A DNA stretch of 64,000 nucleotides, taken from contig JAFGFM010000009.1 in assembly GCA_016931115.1 (NCBI GenBank), positions 57,562 through 121,561 on the forward strand. Reading direction: 5' to 3'. Under the pieces are notes generated by a model. That model was given only the letters and a program-made list of their open reading frames with translations, was not told where the DNA came from and did not search any database. The stretch is from Deltaproteobacteria bacterium (GTDB taxonomy: Bacteria; Desulfobacterota; DSM-4660; Desulfatiglandales; HGW-15). Of the stretch, positions 8,017 through 13,946 are shown piece by piece (the first letter of the stretch is position 1; the number at the start of each line of letters is the position of its first letter). Made by a program: the position numbers and the translations under genes.

Positions 8017-9317
8017 TCATAACCTCTTTTCAATCAGCTCCTTAACTACCTTTGGATTGGCCTTACCCTGTGAAAGCTTCATAACCTGCCCAACAAGAAA
8101 CCCCTTTGCCTTTTCCAAACCTGACCTCACATCCGCTACAGCATCGGGCTGCTCGGATAACACCTTATCAATAAGGGTTTCAAGAGCGGCCTCATCGGAC
8201 ACCTGCACAAACCCGCGGTTTTTAACAATCTCTTCAGGTGATTCATTGCTCTCAAACATAAAGACAACCACCTCACGCGCTGCATTTGCGTTGATCTCAT
8301 CACGGCCAAGCATCTTAAGGAGTGCCCCTAACTTCTCCGGTGTTACATGAGAATTGTCCAGCTCCTGACCTCTTTCCCTTGCAGCGGGGATAAGCTGTGT
8401 GGTGAGCCAGTGCATGGCGGTTCTGGGCTGAATGCCCTGACCGGTCAGCTCTTCAAAATACCTTGCTGTGGCAGGGTCAGAACTCAGATAAACGGCCTCA
8501 TCACCTGTCAGCTCATACTGTTTTACAAACCTTTCTGCCCTTGCGGAGGGCATCTCAGGGAGTCGTGATCTCATCGCCTCTATCCATTCCCTACGCTTTC
8601 GGTCTGACGTTTTATCTCATAGGCAATGGCGTCACCCACATGCTTAATGGAGTTCATGTTCTTTACCTCCACCTTTGTGTTCAACTCTGTGCTGCCCTTT
8701 GGCCTTATGGATATATTGGCGTCAGCCCGCATGGTACCATTTTCCATGCTGCACTCGGATGAACCCACATAACGAATCTGTGTACGAAGCGCCTTTAAAA
8801 ACTCCATTGCCTCAAAGGGGGTTCGAAAATCGGGTTCTGTAACGATCTCCACAAGGGGTGCGCCTGCCCGGTTGAAGTCAACAAGGCTTATGGGTGTGCG
8901 GCCCTCCATTTCATGAACAAGCTTTGCAACATCCTCCTCCATATGGATATGATGGATGCGCAGCCTTCTGGTAACGCCCTCCTCATTCATGATCTCAATA
9001 CCACCGCCCCTGGAAAGGGGAAGATGCGCCTGTGAAAGCTGATAACCCTTTGGCAGATCGGGGTAATAATATACCTTCTGGTCAAATGCGCTGACGGGCT
9101 GGAGTTCTGCGCCAAACCCCAGGCACAAAAGAGCGGCCTTGTTAAGGGCCTCCTCGCTTAAACGTGGAACAGCGCCCGGAAACCACAGGCAGGTCGGGCA
9201 TGTATTTGCATTGGGTTCATCGCCCGGGTTATTGGGGCAGTCACAAAAGAGCTTGGTGGCACAATTGAGTTCAACATGAATCTCCAAACCTATTACCGCT
9301 TCAAATTCCATAATCAT
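8017..9317 (-). pseudogene. gatB: GatB-like subunit of Asp/Glu-tRNA amidotransferase, disrupted by an internal out-of-frame deletion
   Basis: N-part (8580-9317) VIGLEIHVELNCATKLFCDC...DLPKGYQLSQ...KVEVKNMNSIKHVGDAIAYEIKRQTE; C-part (from about 8590 down to 8017) REWIEAMRSRLPEMPSARAERF...; frames differ and the intervening conserved segment is absent. Confidence 0.8.
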
Positions 9318-10513
9318 TTACCTCCATCACGCCTGCTCAAAATATATTCACCCAGTGTGAGCAATCCCCCATCACTGTTTCTCGGCCCTGCAAGCTGGAA
9401 GCCTGTCTGCCCGGAATCAGAATCTGAAGGGAGACAGAGTACAGGCTGGCCGGTCACATTGGCAAAAAGGGTGAATGTAAACTCTCTGTATATGGATGAT
9501 AGCCCCCCTGTATCATCAGCCCCTGTTGAGTTAATCGCAGGAAACAGAAGGAAATCGGCCTGGGAATAGATTTGATCCATCCCCTTAAGCAGCCTGGCCC
9601 TTATGCGGCAGGCATCTTCAAATGCCCTGTACTGTTCAAACTGGAAATAGGCCCCCTGTATCAGGAAACATTTTAACAGCTCCCCGAATGCTGCGCCGCG
9701 GGATTGAATATACATCTCGTTCCAGTTTTTTGCGCCTGGCGCACGCTCACCATATCGGACAGAATCATATCGGCCTGCGCAGGAGGATGCCTCCACTGAC
9801 CCTGCTATGCTGTGCACCAGGGAAAAGAGATGAAAATCGAGCAGGGAAAACTCCCTGATAATGAATCCCTCATTTTTCAGACTGTTTATTGACCCGGAAA
9901 AGAGCTCCCTCTCTTTTTCAGGCAGCATGTTCAGGGCCTCGGTTATTATACCTATGGTCGTCTTTGCAGGGTGAATCTCTTTTTTTCTTAAATCCGGGAT
10001 ATCTTCATCGGGCATGGAAAAATCAAGGCCATCCTGACCTGCTATAACACCCAGTATGGCCCTTATGCCCTGGATATTTTTTGATATCACCCCGCAGCTC
10101 TCCATGGAAGGGATCAGGCCGATAAGGCCATAACGTGATATAAGACCATATCCGGGCTTGTACCCCGGAACACCCCTTTCTGTTGCTGCAAGCCGTGCCT
10201 CACCCATCATATCAAGAATCAGTTCAGCGTCTGCGGCCCCCTGCTTAACCGCTTCTCCGGCATGGCTTTTATTTAAACCAAAGCCGAACTCACTCATGCG
10301 GGTTGAGCCACCTATATATGCTCCAGCATCTTTGAGCCTTTTAATTACGGTTGAATCCTCCAGTGCAGTATATCCTGACAATGCCCTTGACCCTGCATCA
10401 GATGGCCAGCCCTTTATCTGGATATTCGGCTGGATCGCTATGTTCAAACCCTTTAAAGGTCCATCAACCATTACCTGTGTATCAGGGTTGCGAAAAAAAT
10501 AATCAAATTTCAT
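9314..10513 (-). CDS. GatA-like amidase-family protein lacking the Ser-Ser-Lys catalytic residues
   Basis: LKGLNIAIQPNIQIKGWPSDAGSRAL, GYKPGYGLISRYGLIGLIPSMESCG, EASSCAGRYDSVRYGERAPG; no GGSSGGSA or SDTGGSIR segment. Confidence 0.75.
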   Translation of the reverse strand: MKFDYFFRNPDTQVMVDGPLKGLNIAIQPNIQIKGWPSDAGSRALSGYTALEDSTVIKRLKDAGAYIGGSTRMSEFGFGLNKSHAGEAVKQGAADAELILDMMGEARLAATERGVPGYKPGYGLISRYGLIGLIPSMESCGVISKNIQGIRAILGVIAGQDGLDFSMPDEDIPDLRKKEIHPAKTTIGIITEALNMLPEKERELFSGSINSLKNEGFIIREFSLLDFHLFSLVHSIAGSVEASSCAGRYDSVRYGERAPGAKNWNEMYIQSRGAAFGELLKCFLIQGAYFQFEQYRAFEDACRIRARLLKGMDQIYSQADFLLFPAINSTGADDTGGLSSIYREFTFTLFANVTGQPVLCLPSDSDSGQTGFQLAGPRNSDGGLLTLGEYILSRRDGGK

Positions 10514-10527
10514 TAATATATCTCCTG

Positions 10528-12648
10528 TTATTCAAGGATGGGGGCCACTTTAAAAAAGGTGCCCTTTACTGAAGGGGCGTTTGCGAGAAGCCTGCCTGCC
10601 TGCGATAACTCTGATCTCTCTGCGCTGGCCCCTGGCCTCATCCGATTGGAGAGAGGCACCACCGTGTATGCAGGCTCTTCAGTTCCAGCGTTCTTTGAAG
10701 CTATCCCTGCAAGCCCTTTAGCCTGCGCAAGAACAGCCTGAATCATTGGCCGCTCCTCTTCTTTAATATTGATGCGTGATACCCACGAGACCCTGTCAAG
10801 GAGGTTATCCTGTTTTTCTGCCCCGGGAAGCCTCTCCTTTGCCTCCAGATTGAGCAGGCCAAGATCAGCAAGCTGACCTCTTTTTACCATTGAAGGGGCG
10901 CCTGTAAGCGGGCATGCTGCGCTGCGGTTTTTGGGAAAGGCAATGACCTCGCGAATGGACTGGGTTCTAAGGATCATTGAAACTGCCCTGTCCATACCCA
11001 GTGCCAGCCCACCATGAGGAGGGGCGCCGAAATCAAAGGCGCGCAGGAAAAACCCGAACTTCTGAGCTGTATCCTCTTCTGTAAGTCCAAGGGCCTTGAA
11101 TATCTTTCTCTGAAGGTTGCGGTCATTTATACGAATGCTGCCTCCACCCAGCTCCTCCCCGTTTACCACTAGGTCATAGGCCCTGGAATGCAGGGCAAGG
11201 AGTTCATCGATATTTTCAGGGTCAAAATCCTCTCGGTCGGGTGCTGTAAAGGGGTGGTGACTGGATGTCACGCCGCCATCCTCTGTTGCCTCAAATAAAG
11301 GAAAATCAGTGACCCATACAGGATAAAAACTATCCTCAGGGATCATGCCAAGCCGTTCTGCCAGGTGAAGGCGCAGTTGCCCGAGGGCAGAGACTACAAC
11401 GCTGTATGAGGGGTCTGCCACCATGATTAGAACATCCCCATCCTTCACATCGAACCTTTGCTTGAGCCCCTCAAGCTCTTTATCGCTGAAGTACTGAACA
11501 ATATTGGATTCCAGTTTCCCACCCTCAGCGCGCATCCAGGTCATGCCCTTGGCCCCGAATGAGGGGGCAATCTCTTTTGCGTATTCATTCTGAAGCACAT
11601 TCTTGCTGAGTTTATCTGACTGGCCCTTTATATTGATTCCCTTTATACAGCCACCCCGCTGCATTATCTGGCGGAAGATGGTATAGTTTGTATCCTGAAA
11701 CAGCTCTGTCACATCCTTAAACAGAAGGCCGAAACGCAGATCAGGCTTGTCAGAACCGGTTGTCTCCATTGCCTCCTTATGTGTTATGCGGGGAAATGGC
11801 CGCAAAAGGCTAATCCCGCCCTCGGCAAAGATCCTGACCGTGAGCTCTTCGACCATTTCATAAATGAATTCCTCGTCAATAAAGGATGCCTCCATATCAA
11901 GCTGGGTAAATTCAGGCTGCCTGTTGGGCCGCAGGTCTTCATCACGAAAGCAGCGTGCCAACTGGTAGTAACGCTCCATGCCGCCTATCATCAATAGCTG
12001 TTTAAAAAGCTGCGGTGACTGGGGCAGCGCATAGAAATTTCCCTGGTGAACCCTGCTGGGCACAAGATAATCCCTTGCCCCTTCAGGGGTGCTCATGGTA
12101 AGCACAGGCGTCTCTATCTCTAAAAAACCACGTGAATCCAGGAATTCACGGACGCACTTGAATATGCGGTGCCGGGCAATGATGTTATCTCTTACTGAAG
12201 AGCGTCGAATGTCCAGGTACCTGTACTGAAGACGCAGATCCTCATTTACCTTTTCAGCGCCCAAAGACTGGGCGCCTGAGACCATTGCCTTTTCAGAAAC
12301 AGTGAAGGGAAGCGCATCAGACTCGGAAAGGATTGTAAGCTCTTTGACCATAAGTTCAATGGTGCCTGTTTCTATATTGGGGTTTTCTGTGCCCGCTTCC
12401 CTTTTTCTGACCTCTCCCCGCACTGCAATGCAGTATTCGGCGCGAAGGGTGGCAGCCAGATCACAGACCCCTTTAGACGCTATTTCAGGGTTAAAAACAA
12501 TCTGCATAATGCCGCTTCGGTCGCGCAGATGAATAAAAAGCAGCCCCCCGTGATCCCTGAAGGCATCCACCCAACCGGCCAGGAGTATTGTCCTGCCCTC
12601 GTCACCGGGTTTAATCTGGCCGCAAAAGAGACGTTCTTTAAAATGCAT
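10528..12648 (-). CDS. aspS: Aspartyl-tRNA synthetase with C-terminal GatC-like domain
   Basis: FLEIETPVLTMSTPEGARDYLVPSR, QSPQLFKQLLMIGG, FRDEDLRPNRQPEFTQLDME, GLALGMDRAVSMIL; the final ~100 aa resemble GatC (VPLSNRMRPGAS...LLANAPSVKGTFFKVAPILE). Confidence 0.9.
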   Translation of the reverse strand: MHFKERLFCGQIKPGDEGRTILLAGWVDAFRDHGGLLFIHLRDRSGIMQIVFNPEIASKGVCDLAATLRAEYCIAVRGEVRKREAGTENPNIETGTIELMVKELTILSESDALPFTVSEKAMVSGAQSLGAEKVNEDLRLQYRYLDIRRSSVRDNIIARHRIFKCVREFLDSRGFLEIETPVLTMSTPEGARDYLVPSRVHQGNFYALPQSPQLFKQLLMIGGMERYYQLARCFRDEDLRPNRQPEFTQLDMEASFIDEEFIYEMVEELTVRIFAEGGISLLRPFPRITHKEAMETTGSDKPDLRFGLLFKDVTELFQDTNYTIFRQIMQRGGCIKGINIKGQSDKLSKNVLQNEYAKEIAPSFGAKGMTWMRAEGGKLESNIVQYFSDKELEGLKQRFDVKDGDVLIMVADPSYSVVVSALGQLRLHLAERLGMIPEDSFYPVWVTDFPLFEATEDGGVTSSHHPFTAPDREDFDPENIDELLALHSRAYDLVVNGEELGGGSIRINDRNLQRKIFKALGLTEEDTAQKFGFFLRAFDFGAPPHGGLALGMDRAVSMILRTQSIREVIAFPKNRSAACPLTGAPSMVKRGQLADLGLLNLEAKERLPGAEKQDNLLDRVSWVSRINIKEEERPMIQAVLAQAKGLAGIASKNAGTEEPAYTVVPLSNRMRPGASAERSELSQAGRLLANAPSVKGTFFKVAPILE

Positions 12649-12848: not shown

Positions 12849-13946
12849 TTATACATTCAACAGGTCATTTTCCAATTGTGATGCAAGCCTTCCAGCCATC
12901 AGTGTTAATTCCTCCCCATTTTCCAGACCTTCAATAAAACGTTTCGGGATATTGCTCAACCCGACCTGTGCACCTGTGAGTGCGCCGGTAAGAATGGCCC
13001 GTGCCTGATTCTGTCCACCGCCATTTATGGCATGCAGGACTGCCGACTCAAAATCATTATGGAACCAGGCAGAAAGATAATAGGCAGCAGGGAGCTGATG
13101 GTAAATAGCGCAAGGCATGCCATAAACTATAGATACCTTCCAGGCAGGTTCAATGCGGATATCAGGGTCAGCGGCAGCCGCTGCCATATGGGATGGTGTA
13201 ATTAATGCATCAGGTGAGGCAAAGCGCCCGGCCCGCGGTGGATCAGGGTCTCCCGGTTGCGGCGGCTTCATATTGTCGCGCACTACCGAATGAAAAGGGA
13301 GCTTTCCGCTTCTTACCAGGTTCATAAGTTTTCCGGATATGGTTTGGTCGAGCCTGTTCCCCTGCACAAGGAGACCTACCACAGCGCCAAATGCAACAGT
13401 CATGGATACAACCGTGTCATCAATCTGTGTAAGGATGGTGTTGCTCGTGATTGCGGCGGCAAGTTTTGTGGGATTAAGGGCAAAACGTACTGCCAGGGCA
13501 AGGGTTCTTTCTATAGCCTCTGTGGTGTCTGCATGCCCGCCTGTCTTACCCCATGGAAGCTTCTCCTGAACACGTCTGCGCCACGCCTCACGAATACTTT
13601 GACTTGTGTAGAGGCCAGGCCCGCTTACAGGCGTTCCATCAAGTAGAGGGAAAAGCTCCTCATCCATCCGGCGGCAAAAATCCTGTTCATTGTATTCCCC
13701 ATTCTCAACAAGGGAGCAGAGCATAAGCCTGAGGATAAACCCGGCCTGAGAAAGCTGGCCGGCCTTAAGGCCATCATGATAGCGTCCTGGTTTAGGGTCA
13801 GTGTATCCCTCTATCCACGCACCATATTCTTTTCGAAGTTCATTCAGATCATAGTACCAGTGCGGGCCTACTCCAAGGGCATCACCAATAAATGCCCCCA
13901 TTATGGCGCCTGTTGCCCTCTCTTTTAAACCTGAAGAATTTAGCAT
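12849..13946 (-). CDS. ADP-ribosylglycohydrolase-family protein (atypical)
   Basis: GAIMGAFIGDALGVGPHW...; family C-terminus NGGGQNQARAILTGALTGAQVGL. Confidence 0.7.
   Translation of the reverse strand: MLNSSGLKERATGAIMGAFIGDALGVGPHWYYDLNELRKEYGAWIEGYTDPKPGRYHDGLKAGQLSQAGFILRLMLCSLVENGEYNEQDFCRRMDEELFPLLDGTPVSGPGLYTSQSIREAWRRRVQEKLPWGKTGGHADTTEAIERTLALAVRFALNPTKLAAAITSNTILTQIDDTVVSMTVAFGAVVGLLVQGNRLDQTISGKLMNLVRSGKLPFHSVVRDNMKPPQPGDPDPPRAGRFASPDALITPSHMAAAAADPDIRIEPAWKVSIVYGMPCAIYHQLPAAYYLSAWFHNDFESAVLHAINGGGQNQARAILTGALTGAQVGLSNIPKRFIEGLENGEELTLMAGRLASQLENDLLNV

Follow-up and report, generated by a model that had tools for sequence, protein, structure and literature searches.

A paralogous AspRS-GatC, GatA and GatB cassette whose GatA lacks the glutaminase site may form a glutamine-independent transamidosome

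To our knowledge, all GatCAB-type amidotransferases characterised so far carry their own glutaminase. Yeast GatA has the equivalent Ser-cisSer-Lys triad together with an Asp and an Arg that hold the glutamine, and GatFAB also transamidates with NH4Cl, a use of ammonium that increases when the subunit bracing the glutaminase site is trimmed (PMC4027206). Within a 64,000-nucleotide stretch of DNA from a Deltaproteobacteria bacterium (the window), we analysed three minus-strand genes, referred to here as the cassette, which encode a bacterial-type aspartyl-tRNA synthetase (AspRS) fused to a GatC-like tail, a GatA homologue and a GatB homologue. The cassette shares homologous subunits, the GatA fold, the GatB kinase residues and the bacterial AspRS partner with GatCAB and the asparagine transamidosome (S. 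aureus 2df4, A. aeolicus 3h0l, P. aeruginosa 4wj3). However, its GatA is devoid of the catalytic triad, the glutamine-holding residues and the N-terminus, its GatC is degenerate and fused to AspRS, and its GatB lacks the loop residues 266-268 and belongs to a separate clade.

The fused synthetase by itself already is an annotated family, as judged from its full-length match over 706 aa to NCBIfam NF009460 (PRK12820, 'bifunctional aspartyl-tRNA synthetase/aspartyl/glutamyl-tRNA amidotransferase subunit C'; 1273 bits, below the cut-off of 1379). This entry covers the fused synthetase only and contains nothing on a dead GatA partner or on a glutamine-independent set. No description of a glutaminase-dead GatA, of an AspRS-GatC fusion or of such a set was found in the open-access literature, which is weak evidence of novelty. 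The window genome itself (5.18 Mb, 98.5% complete) harbours, on contig C153, a canonical aspS-gatC/gatA/gatB operon with the same gene order and the same type of AspS-GatC fusion, here cut by the contig end. Unlike the cassette, this operon encodes a GatA with the full triad, a true GatC (TIGR00135, 90.8 bits) and a GatB with the DYRYFPDPD loop, and the two GatA proteins are only 26% identical over residues 83-376.

The cassette gatA (9314-10513, minus strand) is open over 399 aa, as stated in the initial annotation, and was identified as a GatA homologue by Pfam Amidase (163 bits), by NCBIfam gatA TIGR00132 (210.6 bits, under the curated cut-off of 481.1) and by GatA crystal structures, which match it both by sequence and by fold. 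An AlphaFold model (pLDDT 88.5, pTM 0.89) found A. aeolicus GatA (3h0l_A) as its best PDB match with a TMq of 0.88, followed by other GatA structures. According to this model, the amidase-signature GatA fold is retained, and the substituted residues are therefore predicted to sit at the old glutamine pocket. Numbered according to S. aureus GatA (Lys79, Ser178, Tyr309, Arg358, Asp425), the alignment confirmed that the AIKDN motif reads AIQPN, so that the catalytic Lys79 is replaced by Gln28 (codon 10430-10432), and that the GGSSGGS loop is absent. This cis-Ser loop is deleted together with its flanks (about 22 residues) at codons 84-86 (10256-10264), and the N-terminal approximately 55 residues of GatA are missing as well. 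The SDTGGSIR segment had initially been described as missing and replaced by an unrelated stretch. Here the alignment gave a different picture: as LDMMGEAR is colinear with SDTGGSIR and retains D174, G177 and R180, with only the cis-Ser loop and the N-terminus being deleted, the stretch is homologous, and the nucleophile Ser178 is replaced by Glu105 (codon 10199-10201). Mapping of the triad thus gave Lys to Gln, a deleted cis-Ser and Ser to Glu. His234 (codon 9812-9814) occupies the position of Tyr309, and the glutamine-holding Arg358 and Asp425 are gone. No missing triad was found elsewhere in the protein. An alignment artefact was ruled out, as MAFFT alignment with canonical GatA, the PDB alignments and all relatives agreed.

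The same changes recur throughout the family. About 40 relatives were found, and residues were counted over 41 aligned members. Gln replaces Lys79 in 39 of 41, while in all 41 the cis-Ser is deleted, Ser178 is Glu and the Tyr309 of canonical GatA is His. Arg358 is replaced by Tyr, Phe or Leu in every member (mostly Phe or Tyr), and Asp425 is always lost, with Phe at this position in 35. D174, G177, R180 and E316 are invariant. The whole glutaminase apparatus is gone from this family. These findings strongly support the initial view of a long-maintained pseudo-amidase: relatives with the same losses occur across many lineages, and the copy in a congener is intact with 84% identity. The ratio of non-synonymous to synonymous substitution (dN/dS) between the two congeners is 0.22, far from the value near 1 with stop codons in relatives that decay would have left. 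Recent decay of gatA was thus ruled out. The suggestion that the protein acts as a scaffold or regulator of the transamidosome fared less well, as the gene is part of a full paralogous set in which the catalytic residues of AspRS and GatB are intact, and as the old active site has been refurnished with an invariant Glu and His and a near-invariant Gln rather than eroded. A site of this kind is no less compatible with an altered function than with a pure scaffold, and the uniformity of the residues now present in the old glutamine pocket suggests that GatA is more than a holder of the complex.

Directly adjoining gatA, as noted initially, lies aspS-gatC (10528-12648, minus strand), though not as two genes: both are fused into a single ORF of 706 aa, and its GatC portion is degenerate. 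The AspRS part has the OB anticodon domain, the GAD domain and the class II core (Pfam), and its class II motifs are nearly invariant, with the catalytic residues fully conserved, in 34 of 34 relatives. The anticodon-binding domain carries a His (36/36) and a Gly (34/36) which, from work on P. aeruginosa and H. pylori, we take to mark non-discriminating AspRS. M. tuberculosis AspRS(Asp/Asn) shares both residues in the PDB alignment, and the stand-alone AspRS of the window genome has Leu at the His position, the marker of the discriminating type. The stand-alone AspRSs of the host genomes are mixed, and since many of them carry the same His and Gly, these markers do not set the cassette AspRS apart; they are suggestive of a non-discriminating enzyme. 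The GatC tail comprises the last approximately 107 codons and the stop (10528-10851). It scores 15.9 bits over the full length of TIGR00135 (cut-off 47.1), and hhalign against canonical GatC tails gave an E of 7e-5 and a probability of 63. From these comparisons, the tail appears as a diverged GatC that is recognisable at its C-terminus. NRMRPG and LLxNAPxVKGxxFKVAxILE are conserved in the tail.

The putative kinase site of the cassette GatB is complete. All ATP/Mg residues named for GatB in PMC4027206, mapped here to S. aureus numbering (E10, H12, E125, E150, S/T153, N194 and S196), are kept in 43 of 43 members, as are Lys79 and Lys88. Residues 266-268 (DYR of the DDYRYFPEPD loop) are deleted in 43 of 43, a count over the members that span the site, and this loss may change the tunnel or the site that receives the tRNA end. 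In the window, gatB is split into two ORFs, a 5' fragment (8580-9317, minus strand; 245 aa, Pfam GatB_N) that holds the kinase/transamidase catalytic domain and overlaps gatA by 4 nt, and a 3' fragment (8017-8574, minus strand; 185 aa) with the GatB_Yqey tail, which is out of frame with the first. By nucleotide alignment with the congener (L176), whose gatB is intact, the break is due to a 130-bp frameshifting deletion with its junction at 8592-8593. In the congener, the missing 130 bp lie between imperfect direct repeats (AGTG(T)AATGG), so that both slippage and misassembly are possible. The window gatB therefore appears to be either newly broken or misassembled.

The order aspS-gatC, gatA, gatB is found at nearly every locus, with short spacers and a gatA/gatB overlap of usually 4 nt; exceptions are some contig ends and a Lentisphaerae MAG. 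In the latter (G108; loci L121 and L066), aspS lies on another contig, unlinked from gatA-gatB, and only here is the operon clearly disrupted. In the congener, all three genes are intact, and its GatA likewise has 399 aa. The carriers are scattered anaerobic bacteria. A scan of named genomes yielded about 30 loci, most with 42-60% GatA identity to the query, compared to 58-78% for GatB. These loci come from Smithella and other Desulfobacterota MAGs, from two isolates, Desulforhabdus sp. TSK and Desulfobulbus alkaliphilus DSM 24258, and from MAGs assigned to Verrucomicrobiota, Lentisphaerota, Kiritimatiellota, Planctomycetota, Actinomycetota, Chloroflexota and Acidobacteriota. Some of these phyla may reflect faulty binning, but not all assignments need be errors, as the four members from Actinomycetota group together with support. 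Within Desulfobacterota, the cassette occurs in 16 of 395 genomes from at least 11 families, including one single-contig genome. Within the order of the window genome, comparable similarity was seen only in its own genus. All cassette GatBs form one clade (100/100) against the canonical GatBs of the same genomes. Together with the patchy occurrence, this suggests that the cassette was passed on as a self-contained unit, probably across phyla. As to possible vehicles, viral carriage was dismissed, as tblastn gave no viral relative, and so was plasmid carriage, as the best ten of 29 plasmid matches were all below 30% identity and those annotated were gatA or amidase. Between the two congeners, dN/dS is 0.11 for aspS-gatC and 0.026 and 0.145 for the 5' and 3' parts of gatB, and the canonical gatA and gatB gave 0.094 and 0.061. 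The cassette GatA is thus under purifying selection, less tight than that on canonical GatA.

A search of the full genome for a second, catalytic gatA found the canonical gene with its full triad on contig C153, where it is accompanied by gatB and the fused aspS-gatC, and the cassette gatA is hence not the sole GatA of the cell. The genome also encodes a stand-alone AspS, bringing the AspRS genes to three, as well as AsnS, GlnS and AsnB, which makes the cassette surplus to ordinary translation. A similar picture emerged for the host genomes: as a second aspS and glnS were present in 17 of 17 and a canonical gatA in 26 of 30, the cassette is an extra there, too. asnS was found in 8 of 17 and asnB in 11 of 17. 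Among 42 tRNAs read in the window genome, one gene for tRNA-Asn(GUU) and one for tRNA-Asp were found; the same numbers were obtained for both genomes that were checked, so that a dedicated extra tRNA(Asn) or tRNA(Asp) for the cassette was discarded for these two. The canonical fused AspRS of the congener (L122) carries the non-discriminating markers.

As the AspRS and GatB chemistry appears intact and the binding and hydrolysis of glutamine are lost, we tentatively favour glutamine-independent amidation: the fused AspRS-GatC, GatA and GatB of the cassette would form a second, paralogous transamidosome that amidates Asp-tRNA(Asn) with free ammonium. In hosts that already possess the canonical genes, a second set should differ in some respect, and glutamine use is what was lost. 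A non-discriminating AspRS would charge tRNA(Asn), and also tRNA(Asp), with aspartate. GatB would then use ATP to phosphorylate the side chain of the aspartyl group on Asp-tRNA(Asn), and attack of ammonia on this activated group would yield Asn-tRNA(Asn). GatA would obtain no ammonia from glutamine and would hold the complex together, while its old glutamine pocket (Gln79, Glu178, His309 and aromatic residues at 358/425) would probably admit free ammonium or ammonia to GatB, with Glu178, the aromatic residues and His309 proposed to recruit the ammonium. Free ammonium would be the simplest nitrogen donor; its role as nucleophile, the assembly of the complex and the tRNA specificity are inferred. 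Such cells would contain two sets, a glutamine-dependent canonical GatCAB and an ammonium-dependent cassette, resembling the asparagine synthetases AsnB and AsnA. AsnA depends on ammonia and AsnB on glutamine, and neither is a tRNA-dependent amidase. The analogy is purely functional, in that ammonia and glutamine routes lead to the same amide. Several observations weigh against this reading, namely the loop deletion in GatB, the lack of nitrogen-metabolism neighbours, the sharing of the AspRS markers with many stand-alone enzymes and the frameshifted gatB of the window. Sequence data would also fit a nucleophile other than ammonia. In addition, the counts of asnS and asnB indicate that Asn-tRNA(Asn) is often obtainable otherwise.

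The operon and the evidence from AspRS and GatB would also be explained if GatA were a structural brace, with ammonia reaching GatB from the solvent or from another amidase and the pocket having no role of its own. The lower conservation of GatA compared to GatB and its higher dN/dS (0.22 versus 0.03-0.15) point in this direction. However, the invariant Glu178 and His309, the Gln79 in 39 of 41 members and the mostly Phe or Tyr residues at 425 and 358 show that these positions are not free, and we consider a mere brace unlikely. The same uniform changes, together with the lost GatB residues 266-268, could instead mean that the subunit that once acted as glutaminase now binds a new ligand and supplies something other than ammonia from glutamine. 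This nucleophile, which may not be ammonia at all and could be a further amine or a sulfur donor, would be passed to the tRNA-bound aspartyl phosphate. The outcome would be a noncanonical aspartate derivative on the tRNA instead of Asn-tRNA, an atypical aminoacyl-tRNA that serves some special product. Several hosts already obtain asparagine through asnS, asnB and canonical GatCAB, which would leave room for such a role. Yet a dedicated tRNA is absent from the two genomes, conserved biosynthetic neighbours are absent as well, and a modified Asp on the sole tRNA(Asn) would enter proteins, all of which makes this joint reading quite unlikely.

The loss of the glutaminase in hosts of which most hold an intact canonical set would also be in line with a regulatory decoy that sequesters tRNA(Asn) or Asp-tRNA(Asn), or competes with the canonical transamidosome, and thereby adjusts the decoding of asparagine under stress, with an idle GatB. 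This we regard as distinctly improbable, given that the GatB kinase residues and the AspRS catalytic motifs are kept throughout and that the 5' part of gatB is under very strong purifying selection. The split gatB of the window might finally indicate a decaying duplicate, the cassette being a pseudogene cluster in this genome. Against this stand the intact gatA and aspS, the congener with all three genes, the purifying selection and the approximately 40 relatives, and the deletion could be an assembly error at the imperfect direct repeat. Decay could account for what is seen in the window genome but not for the family, and it appears very improbable overall.

If the proposed ammonium-dependent transamidosome is correct, tRNA-dependent amidation would run naturally without glutamine, the glutaminase having been discarded and the synthetase and kinase kept. 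Ammonia tunnelling and the evolution of pseudoenzymes would gain a model from nature, and there would be a reason why two GatCAB sets and two or three genes for AspRS occur in some bacteria. 'GatA' annotations derived from the cassette risk being misread when transamidation pathways are inferred.

No conserved neighbours, including biosynthetic or nitrogen-metabolism genes, were found at the cassette loci. Directly upstream of the operon in the window, on the same strand, lies an ADP-ribosylglycohydrolase-family gene (12849-13946), which is not conserved at the other loci. In a subgroup of Smithella loci (L045, 8916-11614; L051, 10680-13380; L072, 6830-9531), glnS and a gene resembling PLP-dependent threonine dehydratase/serine racemase are located downstream on the opposite strand, and the latter gene also occurs near the cassette in two further loci (L058 and L059).
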